IMG/VR virus record: IMGVR_UViG_3300009155_000101
Location: 1-43,077 of that record
Length of the DNA: 43,077 nt
Origin: a virus
Reading direction: 5' to 3' (one strand)
Each line of letters starts with the position of its first letter. The first letter of the stretch is position 1. A model generated the notes under the pieces. The model was not told the origin of the DNA. It saw nothing but the letters and a program-made list of their open reading frames with translations, and made no database searches. Below, one piece after another: positions 3,951-37,568 of this stretch. Made by a program: the position numbers and the translations under genes.

Positions 3951-3956
3951 TATTTA
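3951..3956 (-). promoter_or_regulatory. Putative late promoter core (ATAAATA)
   Basis: Read on the minus strand this is ACATAAATATC. It lies 54 bases before the start of the 482-codon gene and contains the TAA stop codon of the upstream 313-codon gene. Confidence 0.6.
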
Positions 3957-4895
3957 TGTCTTGGGGGATTCTGACTCTTTTGTTGCCTGCGCGGTCTTCC
4001 GCGCGGCTTCCAATTTCTTGAAGCCGTTCTGCTCCTTGATCTTGGCAATGATTTCTTTCGTCAGATCCGACTGCACAGTTGCTGCAATACCGCTCTCACC
4101 AAAGATCCGCTCCTTTTCGCTGTCGGTCATCGACTCCTTGAGGATCTGTATCATCTCCACAATCTCACGGATGGCTGTTGCGTTTCGCTTGCTGTTGATC
4201 GTAGACCATGCAACCATGCCCACAGCAATTACAAACCCAACGATGAGCAGTATCGCACCGACCATTGCGATCTGATCCATGTAACGATGTGCCGCTGATG
4301 CAAATCCAAGCATCAGCGCACCAAGCAGCGCGAGTGTTCCACCGTATCCCTTGTTCAAGAAGAACGCGACTGCTGCCCCCGCTGCAATCAGAAGAAAGCC
4401 AATGACCCAAAACATGCTGATGTAGCCGTACAATTTCTCCATGGCTTTCGCCTTGGTCTGATCCAATGCGATCTGTAGACTCGTCAGCGACTTCTCAAGT
4501 CGATTCACCTCTGCGGTCAGCGATTGCAGTTTGCCCACTTCTTTGCCGATGCTGTCTGCTGATTCAATGATGTTCGCTGCCTTGCTGTCTACACGATCAA
4601 GGAATTGCGATGCCCGATCTGTCTCCACTCCACCAGAATCGACAGCATTTTCAGACATCGGCGTATCCTCTTTCACGGATTCGATGTTGTAGATCTGTCG
4701 AATGCTCTGTGTCTCAAGCAGTATCCGCCCTGCATCTCGTTTGATGAGGGTCACCGAATCCGTAGTGTGATCCACCACGGAAGTGATTGCTGCGGATGAT
4801 GCGCCCGTGGAAGGCTGAACAGGCGGTACGGTTTTGCAACCGTGGGCTAGGGCTAGAACTGCCGCTGCGAGTGTAAAGATACGCAATGATTTCAT
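3954..4895 (-). CDS. Membrane protein with lipoprotein-like N-terminus, coiled coil and three transmembrane segments
   Basis: The 313-residue product begins with a charged n-region and a hydrophobic segment ending in AHGC, so Cys20 may be lipidated, although the lipobox is not canonical (His at -2, Ala at -3). Residues about 95-155 look like a coiled coil. Three hydrophobic spans follow (about 157-181, 185-203 and 208-230), then a charged C-terminal region. The mixture of lipoprotein-like start and inner-membrane spans is odd. A role in lysis (spanin- or holin-like) or in the envelope is possible but unproven. There is no ribosome binding site: a TAAATA motif ends five bases before the ATG. 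Confidence 0.6.
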   Translation of the reverse strand: MKSLRIFTLAAAVLALAHGCKTVPPVQPSTGASSAAITSVVDHTTDSVTLIKRDAGRILLETQSIRQIYNIESVKEDTPMSENAVDSGGVETDRASQFLDRVDSKAANIIESADSIGKEVGKLQSLTAEVNRLEKSLTSLQIALDQTKAKAMEKLYGYISMFWVIGFLLIAAGAAVAFFLNKGYGGTLALLGALMLGFASAAHRYMDQIAMVGAILLIVGFVIAVGMVAWSTINSKRNATAIREIVEMIQILKESMTDSEKERIFGESGIAATVQSDLTKEIIAKIKEQNGFKKLEAARKTAQATKESESPKT

Positions 4896-4900
4896 ATGGG

Positions 4901-4906
4901 TATTTA
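4901..4906 (-). promoter_or_regulatory. Putative late promoter core (CTAAATAC), leaderless arrangement
   Basis: On the minus strand GCCTAAATACCCAT runs straight into the ATG of the 313-codon gene, with five bases between the last A of the core and the ATG. T4 late transcripts begin about six bases after the core, so the mRNA would start at the AUG. It is back to back with a plus-strand copy at 4926. Confidence 0.6.
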
Positions 4907-4925
4907 GGCTAGTGACCCCTTGCCA

Positions 4926-4931
4926 TAAATA
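4926..4931 (+). promoter_or_regulatory. Putative late promoter core on the plus strand (ATAAATAC), leaderless arrangement
   Basis: CATAAATACTCTT is followed by the ATG at 4937, again with exactly five bases between core and start codon and no Shine-Dalgarno sequence. It is the only plus-strand copy I found in front of a gene. Confidence 0.55.
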
Positions 4932-4936
4932 CTCTT

Positions 4937-5260
4937 ATGTTCCGTGAGCAGCCCGACGAAAAGCGCGAGTTCATCAGGACGCACATCTACAGATTAGGTG
5001 AAGAGATCTCGCCAACGCTCCTTTTTCAGATCACCGCGAAAGATAGTCATAGGTATCAGGGCGAGGGGTGGCGTGAAGTCATGGTGTCGATTCAGCACCA
5101 CCGAGACAAGTTGTACATACGCTACACGGGTATCAATACAGGAGGGATACGATATGCCACGCAGAAACGCGATAGTGAAGCCGAAAAGACCTCAGAAGTC
5201 AACCCCATCTTTAAAGCCTTCGGACAAGCGTTCAAGGTATTCCGTAAAGGGCCCTCGTAA
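4937..5260 (+). CDS. Hypothetical protein, rightward late island
   Basis: This 107-codon gene is on the opposite strand to its neighbours. The ATG follows the ATAAATAC motif by five bases. The product has a charged N-terminal helix, a likely beta-rich middle (about residues 25-75, with paired Val, Tyr and Ile strands) and a basic C-terminus. I do not recognise it. Its last 107 bases overlap the 45-codon reading frame that starts at 5154 in another frame. The late-type promoter suggests it is made with the virion genes. Confidence 0.55.
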   Translation: MFREQPDEKREFIRTHIYRLGEEISPTLLFQITAKDSHRYQGEGWREVMVSIQHHRDKLYIRYTGINTGGIRYATQKRDSEAEKTSEVNPIFKAFGQAFKVFRKGPS

Positions 5261-5291: not shown

Positions 5292-5836
5292 GCCTTGCTG
5301 ACATCGAAAACATCGAATACGAAATTGACTGTCGCTGTCAAGACAGACGGTTCGTTTTCAGTATGCGATAGGGTGAATCCCGATATCTGCGTGGGGATCA
5401 GGTTCTGAAAATTCATGACCAACACGGGCACCTTCTTGTTGTCTAGAAAGAACAGTTTGCCGTAGTTGATCGTGGTATCAGTATCTGGCGCAATTTCCCT
5501 GAAGTCGCGGTAGGGTACTCCCGACCGCATCCACCTGACCATCTCCATGTAATTGCGGAAGTTCTCATCGATGATGAATCGGATCGAGATGTCCGAGGAT
5601 GCCCTGCCACCTGGAAACTTGATGTCGTTGGCGGCAAACAGATGGTTGTATACGCTTGGAGTGGATGTCAGATTCGGTGTCTGTGCCGATGTGCAGAAGT
5701 AAGTGACATTCGGAATCTTCTCGCACACGAAGCGGTAGTTGGTGCTTGCCGCCAGATTAGTGTTGATCGGATTATTGGCAAGCGAACCGAAGTTGGTCAG
5801 TTCGGGCAACCAGTTTTTTGCATTGGGTGATGCCAT
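5288..5836 (-). CDS. Tail-tube-like virion protein, paralogue 2
   Basis: The 182-residue product is clearly related to the 179-residue product of the gene just upstream: both have an NTN...STN(Y/F)R start, a YFCT strand, FI(V/I)(N/D)E(D/N)F followed by an EM..W helix, and LDNKK.PV near residue 135. I associate this pattern with tail-tube or baseplate-tube type structural proteins of T4-like phages, though the exact T4 equivalent is not certain. The ATG has AAGGAG upstream and is immediately adjacent to the stop of paralogue 1. It ends in a TTAA shared with the convergent island gene. Confidence 0.65.
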   Translation of the reverse strand: MASPNAKNWLPELTNFGSLANNPINTNLAASTNYRFVCEKIPNVTYFCTSAQTPNLTSTPSVYNHLFAANDIKFPGGRASSDISIRFIIDENFRNYMEMVRWMRSGVPYRDFREIAPDTDTTINYGKLFFLDNKKVPVLVMNFQNLIPTQISGFTLSHTENEPSVLTATVNFVFDVFDVSKA

Positions 5837-6375
5837 CAGAACTCCTTGATGTCGAACGAGGTGAACTGGAAGGTTGCATCACATGTGATGAACGGTGCGT
5901 CAGCCACCGCAGAGTTCATCGGGATGTTGCTCAAGCCCGTGATCATCAATCCATCAAACATGACACGCGCCACGGGATGCTTCTTGTTGTCCAGTATCAG
6001 CAACTGACCCGAATCCGTGATGAGATTCATCATGCGGGCTTGCGAATTGTCCTGAAAGAACCCGTAGTAATTGAGCGATTTGCGGAACCAATCGGACATC
6101 TCAAACCAGTTGCTGAAGTCCTCGTTCACGATGAACTTGACCGATAGGTCGCCATGCTCAATCTTGTTCCCAAAAAACTTGGCTTGGGCTGCAAGGGGAA
6201 TCGGAACCCGAATCGGTTCCATCGTCATGGATGGGAACGATACCTCAGTACAAAAGTAGACCGCCGACCTTACCTTCGGAATCATCAATCGAAAGTTGGT
6301 AGAGAACGCAGGGTTCGTGTTCAACGGCTGTCGATTGATCCCACCATGCACGATGTCATCGGGTATGTTGTTCAT
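5836..6375 (-). CDS. Tail-tube-like virion protein, paralogue 1
   Basis: This 179-residue protein is the first of two tandem paralogues. It has the same strand-helix-strand pattern as its neighbour (YFCT at about 42-45, the FIVNED segment and EM..W helix near 83-96, LDNKK.PV near 128-135) and resembles gp19-type tube subunits or related baseplate-tube proteins. It differs in a longer N-terminal lead and in the loop after the EM..W helix. It has no ribosome binding site; a TAAATA motif lies six bases before the ATG. Together the pair forms a two-gene unit just downstream of the capsid terminator. Confidence 0.65.
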   Translation of the reverse strand: MNNIPDDIVHGGINRQPLNTNPAFSTNFRLMIPKVRSAVYFCTEVSFPSMTMEPIRVPIPLAAQAKFFGNKIEHGDLSVKFIVNEDFSNWFEMSDWFRKSLNYYGFFQDNSQARMMNLITDSGQLLILDNKKHPVARVMFDGLMITGLSNIPMNSAVADAPFITCDATFQFTSFDIKEF

Positions 6376-6381
6376 CGGATG

Positions 6382-6387
6382 TATTTA
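6382..6387 (-). promoter_or_regulatory. Putative late promoter core (CTAAATAC), near-leaderless
   Basis: GTCTAAATACATCCG lies six bases before the ATG of tube-like paralogue 1, with no Shine-Dalgarno sequence. It directly follows the capsid terminator's T-rich run. Confidence 0.6.
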
Positions 6388-6389
6388 GA

Positions 6390-6423
6390 CCCAAAATGAA
6401 AGAGTGGGGTCTTTCGACCCCAC
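6390..6423 (-). terminator. Intrinsic terminator after the major capsid gene
   Basis: On the minus strand GTGGGGTC pairs with GACCCCAC (6404-6423) around a stable GAAA tetraloop, followed by TCTTTCATTTTG. It lies 32 bases after the gp23 stop codon and just before the next late promoter. Confidence 0.85.
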
Positions 6424-6455
6424 CCTTCTGTGTGTAACACTCTCTCTACTAGGTA

Positions 6456-18748: not shown

Positions 18749-19588
18749 TCAGAACACGAATGGTGTCGGCGGGTATTCTCGGACATAGACCTCTGCTTGC
18801 GTGGCTCCTGTGAACCCTGCGGTCAGAGATGGTGCATAACCACCAGCAGTAACACCCGCCGCTGCGGATGCACCAATGTCGGCAAATGGAGGAATCGTTG
18901 TCCGATCTTTGCCGTAGTCCTTGATGTCAAAGATGTTGACATTCGTGTTCGTGATGAGCGGTGCGGTCTTGACAGGCCCGTAGAGGTACATCTTGGCGAC
19001 GAATTGAATCGTGGCAAAGTTCGTCTTTCGGGTGGCATAGTCACCATACGAACCATCGTCACCTTCGCCCATCGTGATTGATGAAAGCACGATTGGGATG
19101 TCCACATTCGTATCCAACCCATCGATTGCCTTGATGCTGAACACATATTCGGGGGTGAAGTATGGGAGGATCTGCTCGACAATTTGCAAGCAATCATCCA
19201 TGCTCTTCGTCATGGCACTCAGGGTGAGATTCATGTTGTACGGTACGCGCTCGTACCGTCTCTTCAATGAGCCTCTGTCTGCTGCGTTGTATCCAACGGT
19301 CTGCTGTATGCTGTTCAACTTGCGCGACGAGTCATATTGCAAAGATGTGATTTCGAATCCCATTCTCGGAAGATACGATTCCAAACGCACTTGCTGTTGA
19401 TCGAAGTCCGTTCCAATTCTGTCAAGACGGCGCAAGAACTTTTGCTGTGGGCCATACGCAATCGGAATGCGAATGCGCTCCTTTTCATTTCCATTCTCGT
19501 CATTGCGAACGACATGGATGTCGTTGAAAAGGGAGGCGAACCCAACGACCACCTTGCGTACCGTGCCGTGATAGAAGTACTCAAGCAT
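18749..19588 (-). CDS. 15: Tail sheath stabiliser / connector protein gp15
   Basis: The 279-residue product matches the T4 gp15 family, which caps the tail and binds the neck. The N-terminal EYFYHGTVRK..VGFASLFNDI region and the following RIRIPIAYGPQQKFLRRL (about 39-56) are characteristic, as is QRVPYNMNL-type RVPYNMNLTLSAM near 133. The C-terminus after about 230 is Ala/Gly/Thr-rich and looks variable. Order gp13-gp14-gp15-gp16 is as in T4. The start overlaps the gp14 end; GGAG lies upstream. Confidence 0.9.
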   Translation of the reverse strand: MLEYFYHGTVRKVVVGFASLFNDIHVVRNDENGNEKERIRIPIAYGPQQKFLRRLDRIGTDFDQQQVRLESYLPRMGFEITSLQYDSSRKLNSIQQTVGYNAADRGSLKRRYERVPYNMNLTLSAMTKSMDDCLQIVEQILPYFTPEYVFSIKAIDGLDTNVDIPIVLSSITMGEGDDGSYGDYATRKTNFATIQFVAKMYLYGPVKTAPLITNTNVNIFDIKDYGKDRTTIPPFADIGASAAAGVTAGGYAPSLTAGFTGATQAEVYVREYPPTPFVF

Positions 19589-35218: not shown

Positions 35219-37555
35219 TCAGAAGTCGATAACGATCTTGATCTCTTCCTTTTGCTCAAAGCCGCGCTGAATCGGCTTCATATTCTGTATGTATAGGATC
35301 TCTCCAGACCTATATTTCAGTTCGCCCGTGTGGAGAACTTTACTCACGGTGGCAAATCCCTCTGTATAAGATGAGGTCATTCCCGCATAGAATCTCCCCT
35401 GCGTACCCGACAGGCGAAGTGTTCCTGTTGTTCCAGAGGCACCCACCGACCAATCCATCACATAGCCATTGGCTGACCCCGTGCTTCCGTATGCAAAGGA
35501 CTGATAGTTATCCTTGCTGAAGGAGTAGGTGTCGAAGGGATGCGTATCGTCCCACGACATCACCAGCGAAGTAGTCTGATCATATGCGTCAACTCCTTCT
35601 CTGATGAGGCTGTCAATTGCAGAGATCTCACCAATTCCACTCAATCCGCGCGACGAAAAGCCCGAATAAAACGGATCTGTTTCTGTTACACATTCAAGGT
35701 GCTTGAACTTGCCCTGCACATTTTCCAAATACAAGAATCCATTTTTGTTGGTTCCCAGTTGAGGTTCCCATGCGTAGACTTCGCCTGTTGCCCTTGATGG
35801 CGAGATTGATGATTTCCAACTTCCAATTCCATGAGCAATATAGCCGCGCACGAAATCGCCACCGCTTCCAGAGAATGAGACATCGGTTGGTGCTACCGTA
35901 AGTTTGAGGAGTCTGCGAGATTCGGAACCCGCATAGATTCGCTCATCAACATTCATAACCTTCAATCCGTTGATCTGACTGCCATATGCGAATGTACCGC
36001 CCCTGATGTAAGAGAGAACCAACTCGCTTGTTCCGCTATGTCCCGATACTCCCTGTGTCCAAGAAGACACCGTTCCATATGCAGCGTCATACCCACCGAC
36101 TGTGGATTGCTGTGCAGTCGCACCAACCACAAACGATCCTGTGAGACCGCTTCCAAAGAAATTCAGGCGAACCTGTTTCTCAGTTAGCACAGGATTGAGG
36201 ATCAGCGCGAACTGACGGTAGTCGTTATCTGTGCTTATTTTGCCGCCTTCGCCACGATCAAATTGCTTCACGACCATGAGAGAGGACGCACCCAATTCCT
36301 TGACGGGATTCGATCCATGCCCACCAGGTGGAGACATGATTGGGGTAGCAAGATTTGCTAGGTTTGCCTTACCTGTCGGAACAGCAAATCCATTCACATA
36401 CTCCAAGGATGCGAAGGTGTAATCCTTGCCCCCATCGACCAACTCAATGGAATCGATCAATTTGGTCACTTCGAAGAATTCATTGCAGGCGGTGACACCA
36501 TTCACGCGAAGAACATCAGTTCCTGCCGTTCCGCCAAATCGTACCGAGACTTCTGCTGCCTGTGCATATGGATTACCCGAATTCGCATATGCGGAGCCAT
36601 CACCGACCACTCTGATGTTGGGAACGATGGAGAATGTGCATGCGTTTGCACCACCAGAGATGCTGCTTGAGAACGGTTGGTCTACCGCTATAAATGCGGC
36701 GTTTCCGCCACCACTCGGAACGAACGATGCAATTGCTCTTCGCTGACCTAGACCATAGCCGCTGTCGATGGACAAAACCATGTCCTTGTAGTAATCGGTC
36801 TGCAAGAACAAATAGGGAGATGCAAGGGTGATGCCCGTTGTTCCCATAGGGACATCTGCAACAACCGTATTGTTTCCAGCAGGGAATACGCAGCGATCAG
36901 ACACGACAAAAGGTACGACATCTGGATTGATTTGCACATATGCAATCTCACCATCTACCGCTGCTTCTTGCACAGTCCATTGAAGAATCCGCTCATCGCT
37001 TGTCCGCAAGTAATCGATGAACTCTACGGGCATGTAGCCAATGCTGTTGCCTTGCGTCTTGGTCAGGAACTTGCGCTTCGATTCAGGAATCTGATAAAGG
37101 AACTTCCACCGATAGCCATCCCCCAATTTGCGAATTCTTGGGTCGGTGTGCATGGGGGCAACTGAAGATACTGCACCACCAGCATTATCGATGCATTTGT
37201 AGACCCGCTCCTCATCGACCAAAACATAGAACGGGGATGGATCGAGATCATCGAAAAGATCGATGTTGTCCCTGTAGGGAGTGTATACGGTACCAGGCGT
37301 CCAGTCGAATCGTCTGACAACGATTGAGACATCCGATCTATCGATGCGCTTATGGGCAAACGCAGACTTCCAGAAATCCGTATCGTCCTTTACACTATCA
37401 ACACTCGGCGGTGGGGCGTTGTCATCACCCCACCCAACGATCCTGCCGATTGACAGGAAAAGATTGCTATCATCGACATCTCCATAGATGCCAAGCAGCG
37501 CATCTGCTGCGATGCGCTTGTGGTTTTGACGAAATGGGTCGCAGGATCCAGCCAT
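35219..37555 (-). CDS. 8: Baseplate wedge protein gp8
   Basis: The 778-residue product has an N-terminal part (about 1-250) resembling gp8 of T4-like cyanophages: an IGRIVGWGDDNAPPP segment, a DVSIVVRRFDWTPGTVYTPY strand, FYVLVDEERVYKCIDN and DGYRWKFLYQIP. gp8 is a wedge component that holds gp7 and gp10 in T4. It is far longer than T4 gp8 (334), with a Gly/Ser-rich C-terminal extension of about 400 residues that contains repeated GATAQQSTVGGYDAAYGTVSS-like strands. There is no ribosome binding site; a TAAATA motif lies seven bases before the ATG. Confidence 0.8.
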   Translation of the reverse strand: MAGSCDPFRQNHKRIAADALLGIYGDVDDSNLFLSIGRIVGWGDDNAPPPSVDSVKDDTDFWKSAFAHKRIDRSDVSIVVRRFDWTPGTVYTPYRDNIDLFDDLDPSPFYVLVDEERVYKCIDNAGGAVSSVAPMHTDPRIRKLGDGYRWKFLYQIPESKRKFLTKTQGNSIGYMPVEFIDYLRTSDERILQWTVQEAAVDGEIAYVQINPDVVPFVVSDRCVFPAGNNTVVADVPMGTTGITLASPYLFLQTDYYKDMVLSIDSGYGLGQRRAIASFVPSGGGNAAFIAVDQPFSSSISGGANACTFSIVPNIRVVGDGSAYANSGNPYAQAAEVSVRFGGTAGTDVLRVNGVTACNEFFEVTKLIDSIELVDGGKDYTFASLEYVNGFAVPTGKANLANLATPIMSPPGGHGSNPVKELGASSLMVVKQFDRGEGGKISTDNDYRQFALILNPVLTEKQVRLNFFGSGLTGSFVVGATAQQSTVGGYDAAYGTVSSWTQGVSGHSGTSELVLSYIRGGTFAYGSQINGLKVMNVDERIYAGSESRRLLKLTVAPTDVSFSGSGGDFVRGYIAHGIGSWKSSISPSRATGEVYAWEPQLGTNKNGFLYLENVQGKFKHLECVTETDPFYSGFSSRGLSGIGEISAIDSLIREGVDAYDQTTSLVMSWDDTHPFDTYSFSKDNYQSFAYGSTGSANGYVMDWSVGASGTTGTLRLSGTQGRFYAGMTSSYTEGFATVSKVLHTGELKYRSGEILYIQNMKPIQRGFEQKEEIKIVIDF

Positions 37556-37562
37556 TGCTTTG

Positions 37563-37568
37563 TATTTA
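37563..37568 (-). promoter_or_regulatory. Putative late promoter core for gp8 (CTAAATAC), near-leaderless
   Basis: CTCTAAATACAAAGCA precedes the gp8 ATG by seven bases after the core, with no Shine-Dalgarno sequence. The core contains the TAA stop codon of the upstream 712-codon gene. Confidence 0.6.

Follow-up and report, generated by a model that had tools for sequence, protein, structure and literature searches.

Back-to-back T4-type late promoters predicted to give leaderless mRNAs, and a wider class of such late genes in an uncultured phage group and pelagiphages

Results

A divergent pair of predicted leaderless late promoters

Positions 4893-4939 of the viral DNA analysed here (the window, 43,077 nt) are predicted to hold two back-to-back T4-type late promoters with gp55-type −10 boxes and no −35 element. 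On both strands transcription would start at the A of the start codon or at most one base away, and the mRNAs of a 313-aa lipoprotein gene and a 107-aa gene would consequently be leaderless and translated without a Shine-Dalgarno (SD) sequence. The same design appears to serve a class of late genes in the window's phage group and in pelagiphages. Judged from sequence comparisons, this reading, for both the pair and the class, was given a probability of about 80%. The features of the pair are as follows.

3954..4895, minus strand, 313-aa gene with a lipoprotein-type signal peptide, a coiled coil and predicted membrane helices
4895-4893, minus strand, start codon ATG of the 313-aa gene, the A at 4895 being the predicted mRNA 5′ end
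4896..4900, minus strand, 5-base spacer CCCAT of the 313-aa gene, predicted −5 to −1
4901..4906, minus strand, late promoter core TAAATA of the 313-aa gene, predicted −11 to −6, with CC before the core
4907..4925, no strand, interval of 19 bp between the two back-to-back cores
4926..4931, plus strand, late promoter core TAAATA of the 107-aa gene
4932..4936, plus strand, 5-base spacer CTCTT of the 107-aa gene
4937-4939, plus strand, start codon ATG of the 107-aa gene, the A at 4937 being the predicted mRNA 5′ end
4937..5260, plus strand, 107-aa gene of unknown function, oriented opposite to the late genes

According to the original prediction, TAAATA ends five bases from the ATG on each strand, and neither gene has an SD sequence. 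The spacing is exact, SD is missing at both genes, and neither 5-base spacer can hold one. The full T4 octamer TATAAATA is absent from the window; the cores at the pair are CCTAAATA and CATAAATA, in which the TAAATA hexamer of the T4-type late box is kept, with CC or CA in place of the 5′ TA. The T4 late box is numbered from −13 and runs from −13 to −6 (Geiduschek and Kassavetis, PMC2988020), which places TAAATA at −11 to −6, so that a 5-base spacer puts the A of the ATG at +1. The proposal that both mRNAs begin with AUG is supported by this numbering, by the conserved spacing, by the two-peaked distribution of core-to-ATG distances and by the absence of SD at the short spacings described below, and stands as a prediction. 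Translation would most likely be carried out by 70S ribosomes recognising the 5′-terminal AUG. As the cores are 19 bp apart and the predicted starts 42 bp apart, mutual exclusion of RNA polymerases is to be expected: each promoter would exclude the polymerase of the other, and the two would fire alternately.

Conservation of the pair in related contigs

The lipoprotein had no PHROG match, and Pfam gave only DUF2207_C, below the cut-off. Searches among sequenced phages found neither protein relatives of the lipoprotein nor DNA-level relatives of the window, and the structure model of the protein was poor (pLDDT 61, pTM 0.30). The lipoprotein is, however, encoded by 23 viral contigs, with protein identities of 58−100%. 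All 23 carry a core exactly five bases before the ATG (TAAATA in 18, TAAGTA in 5), with 11 different spacer sequences. Comparison of the spacing in related genomes, which had been proposed as a check, thus found the length conserved and the spacer sequence changing. The signal peptide starting at this ATG, together with its Cys, was conserved in 11/11 aligned relatives and fixes the start, so that the lipoprotein start is not shifted downstream in relatives. Conserved use of downstream, SD-bearing start codons, named at the outset as an outcome that would tell against leaderless mRNAs, was not found: the starts were not shifted in relatives and no SD-bearing alternative was conserved.

Homologues of the 107-aa protein (71−107 aa, 34−48% identical, plus one at 97%) have the same start and the same divergent position. 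TAAATA or TAAACA stands five or six bases before the divergent gene in L006, L007/L008, L009/L010, L015 and L018, with cores 15−25 bp apart, and the divergent pair is kept in about six lineages. The core-to-core interval is 19 bp in the window, L005, L007-L010, L018 and L027, and 15, 21 or 25 bp elsewhere. In most relatives the divergent core is TAAACA. For the variant cores TAAACA and TAAGTA there was no genome-wide enrichment in the group concerned, and their support is their conservation. In L016/L017 a different gene, with an SD leader, follows the divergent core. In contigs resembling G002, a close relative of the window, a co-directional subtilase gene replaces the divergent gene; its stop overlaps the lipoprotein core, and the 5-base spacing is kept.

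A secreted subtilase (PF00082) carrying two dockerin-like repeats at its C-terminus adjoins the lipoprotein gene in L012 (2571-3989), L011, L014 and L019. We take these repeats as a hint of a planctomycete-type host. A search of genome contigs with the subtilase for a clue to the host found no relative.

Late promoter cores elsewhere in the window

The window covers 43 kb of the structural region of a T4-like phage, and its gp23 is 60−63% identical to those of Melnitz, Mosig, HTVC008M and cyanophages. The window holds 15 copies of TAAATA where 7.2 would be expected, a count reached by 0/100 shuffles. The minus strand, which carries the late genes, has 14 of them, nearly always immediately 5′ of a gene start, and the sole plus-strand copy stands before the plus-strand 107-aa gene. 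With N denoting the number of bases between core and ATG, TAAATA was found without SD at N=5, 5, 6 and 7 before the lipoprotein, 107-aa, tail-tube-like and baseplate wedge genes, respectively; permuted hexamers gave 0.07 such genes against these four. It also precedes the SD-bearing starts of gp23, scaffold, sheath, tail tube and other genes by 15−60 nt. The short-spacing features outside the pair are:

6382..6387, minus strand, late core TAAATA, N=6 before the ATG at 6375 of the tail-tube-like gene after gp23 (5836-6375)
6399..6428, minus strand, terminator hairpin separating gp23 from the 6387 core, with a 13-bp stem, folding at −25.9 kcal/mol with its neighbours
37563..37568, minus strand, late core TAAATA, N=7 before the ATG at 37555 of the baseplate wedge gene (35219-37555)

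The TAA of the 37563-37568 core is the stop of the upstream gene, and the promoter of the wedge gene is an identical TAAATACAAAGCAATG in G001, another close relative, and G002. Because short spacings also occur at 6387-6382 and 37568-37563, the divergent pair is not unique in the window. The description of the pair as an unusual control element therefore needs to be divided. That both arms are predicted to be leaderless is special, but the leaderless spacing belongs to a genome-wide class, and T4 and KVP40 have back-to-back late promoters too, with leaders after the cores.

Several further arrangements were noted. Two tandem TAAATA cores, 16 bp apart, precede gp23 on the minus strand of the window (7877-7872 and 7861-7856) and are conserved in G001 (15178/15162) and G002 (25038/25022). 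At 43069-43053 (minus strand) the sequence TAAATATCAGGAATCAGATG has a short SD-bearing leader (N=11) and may serve a very short gene upstream of the PAAR gene; near-identical elements lie at G001 51084 and G002 60074. In L032 (9035-9066, equal to G001 89035-89066), a pair of TAAATA cores point towards each other, about 20 bp apart, where no gene was called, and a similar core with a CATATGG motif lies at G002 97412.

Genome-wide core-to-ATG distances

Distances from TAAATA to the first ATG of mechanically called genes were measured in the window, G001, G002, the pelagimyophages HTVC008M and Mosig, and the OM43 phage Melnitz. The pooled distances were two-peaked, with 43 genes at N=5−7, 13 at N=8−14 and 107 at N=15−45. 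SD was present in 0/43 genes at N=5−7 compared to 76/107 at N=15−45. About a quarter of the recognisable late promoters belong to the short-spacing class. Permuted hexamers at N=5−7 averaged 0.07−1.6 per genome, and, together with the shuffles, ruled out a chance origin of the spacing. A strong signal came from the window's group and from HTVC008M; Mosig and Melnitz, each on its own, gave a modest one (Poisson 0.007 and 0.014). The start codons at N=5−7 were ATG (4, 11, 7, 12, 6 and 3), with one TTG and no GTG, a result that calling from ATG favours.

In HTVC008M, Mosig and Melnitz, the short class fell almost entirely at exactly N=5 (11, 6 and 3 genes, respectively), whereas N=6 and 7 were also common in the window's group. 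In the pelagiphages, a pyrimidine preceded the ATG in 19/21 genes of the leaderless class compared to 112/258 SD genes (p=4e-5), giving the pyrimidine-purine step expected of a transcription start site; a pyrimidine at −1 was not enriched in the window's group. At N=6 and N=7 the predicted leaders are of 0−2 nt; in the window's group these spacings would tend to give leaders of 1−2 nt in place of a strict 5′ AUG, a point against the leaderless reading.

These N=6 and N=7 cases, which need a start one or two bases off or a leader of 1−2 nt, lend something to the idea that TAAATA is a promoter whose transcripts start upstream by slippage or inside the gene, with translation at another codon. A start inside the gene would lose the AUG, however, and wrong start codons were ruled out for the lipoprotein by its signal peptide, for UvsW, whose N-terminus matches that of T4 UvsW within one residue, and for RefSeq-annotated genes, since the HTVC008M RefSeq starts agree with the N=5 ATGs. 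We consider this explanation quite unlikely.

The A/T-rich hexamer might instead be an SD-independent, bS1-type ribosome-binding element and not a promoter at the short-spacing genes, given that it occupies the usual place of an absent SD. Against this, the identical hexamer lies 15−45 nt upstream of SD-bearing late genes, TAAATA alone among its one-base variants is clearly in excess at N=5−7, and the spacing obeys promoter geometry, being almost exactly 5 in pelagiphages, all of which makes such an element very improbable. Phage bS21 was likewise rejected as an explanation: it is encoded by HTVC008M, Melnitz and Mosig (W03 91237, W04 35461 and W10 9983, respectively) but is missing from G001 and G002.

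The gene after gp23

The gene after gp23 was gathered from 80 contigs and, with TAAATA, TACATA and TAGATA accepted as cores, 60 distinct loci were counted. N was 5−6 at 27 loci (0 with SD), 8−14 at one and 15−27 at 24 (18 with SD). N=6 is conserved in G001, G002, L124, L126 and L128, and the genes of HTVC008M and Mosig also belong to the N=5 class. On a quick tree with weak deep branches, the N=5−6 and N=15−27 states require at least six changes. The sisters L139 (TAGATA-CTATT-ATG) and L146 (TAGATA-CTTTAAAGGAGTTCTC-ATG) differ by a short SD leader. Apparent variant cores TACATA and TAGATA at N=5 spacing were seen in L132, L134-L137, L139, L141 and L160, which suggests that these cores co-vary with the late sigma factor.

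In the window and the 15 other N=5−6 loci that were folded, a terminator hairpin, in most cases with a T-rich tail after it, precedes the core by a short distance, making it unlikely that read-through transcripts supply a leader. This bears on a further explanation, in which longer read-through transcripts carry the short-spacing genes, their translation depends on coupling to, or reinitiation after, an upstream gene, and TAAATA near the ATG reflects a stop TAA plus tight packing. A stop codon on the same strand does lie 8−24 nt upstream of about half of the N=5−7 genes, in some cases formed by the TAA of the core, and at these genes coupling could contribute. Yet within 60 nt of either gene of the divergent pair no gene ends on the same strand, terminators separate gp23 from the core of the next gene, permuted hexamers show no such excess, and the exact N=5 of the pelagiphages is left unexplained. 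As a general account, read-through is unlikely, and promoters giving leaderless mRNAs remain the preferred reading.

Discussion

T4-type late promoters depend on gp55, gp33 and gp45, with the consensus TATAAATA, or NATAAATA in cyanophages. The promoters described here resemble them in having the core at predicted −11 to −6, no −35 element, late structural genes downstream and, in close relatives, a gp55 homologue. The latter is present in G001 and G002 (49% identical to Mosig gp55); the window is a fragment without gp55. The gp45 profile (Pfam PF02916) gave sub-threshold candidates only in G001/G002. The short class is not a general T4 property, because it is missing in T4, KVP40, Syn9 and S-SM2, in which no called gene has a core at N=5−7 before its first ATG, whereas here about a quarter of the cores stand there without SD. 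HTVC008M, Mosig and Melnitz share the TAAATA-N5-ATG class with the window's group. HTVC008M also has a divergent pair of its own, predicted to be leaderless, at the DNA end protector and head closure genes, with cores 4 bp apart (L075 18914-18945 = HTVC008M 18914-18945).

The lambda cI mRNA transcribed from PRM is a leaderless phage mRNA. The genes described here resemble cI in lacking SD and in having the start codon as their predicted 5′ end; cI, however, is one gene with a sigma-70 promoter, while here a gene class is served by phage-sigma late promoters, presumably in lytic phages. A study of the cI leader and work on 5′-AUG recognition by 70S ribosomes are cited in PMC4631060. Late-promoter prediction was reported as unsuccessful in pelagimyophages (PMC7029224). 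The leaderless class goes unmentioned in the published promoter analyses of pelagiphages that we examined, and in the open-access literature searched, leaderless late mRNAs of T4-like phages were not described. The variant of the T4-type late promoter described here is real and new.

The leaderless candidates include genes for a tail-tube-like (gp3-like) protein, baseplate wedge, tube cap, tail-fibre assembly, UvsW and a Dps-like protein (G001) and, in HTVC008M, the DNA end protector, head closure, tape measure, tube cap and baseplate initiator. Other late genes, among them those for the abundant capsid, scaffold, sheath and tube proteins, have the same box followed by a leader of about 15−60 nt with SD; in the window, capsid, scaffold, sheath and tail tube are all SD-led. 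We suggest that the leaderless genes are the low-copy ones, and lower expression would be expected of them. Tentatively, and at slightly less than even odds, a single late sigma factor in pelagimyophages, OM43 phages and the window's uncultured group may drive two translation classes across this large branch of T4-like phages, with SD leaders on the mRNAs of high-copy virion proteins and no leader on those of low-copy ones; genes would switch class by gain or loss of a short leader, and the core-to-ATG distance would set protein stoichiometry.

Late expression in T4-like phages has served as the model of clamp-activated transcription, and a leader follows the late box in the genomes of T4, KVP40 and the cyanophages studied here. 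If abundant marine phages do conserve a leaderless class of late genes, late box and start codon would form a single element in them, a fusion that may help to explain the undetected late promoters of pelagimyophages. Such a class would also provide a natural system, with a gene that is leaderless in one lineage having an SD-led orthologue in another, and the cultured phages of abundant ocean bacteria (HTVC008M, Mosig and Melnitz) open the class to direct test.
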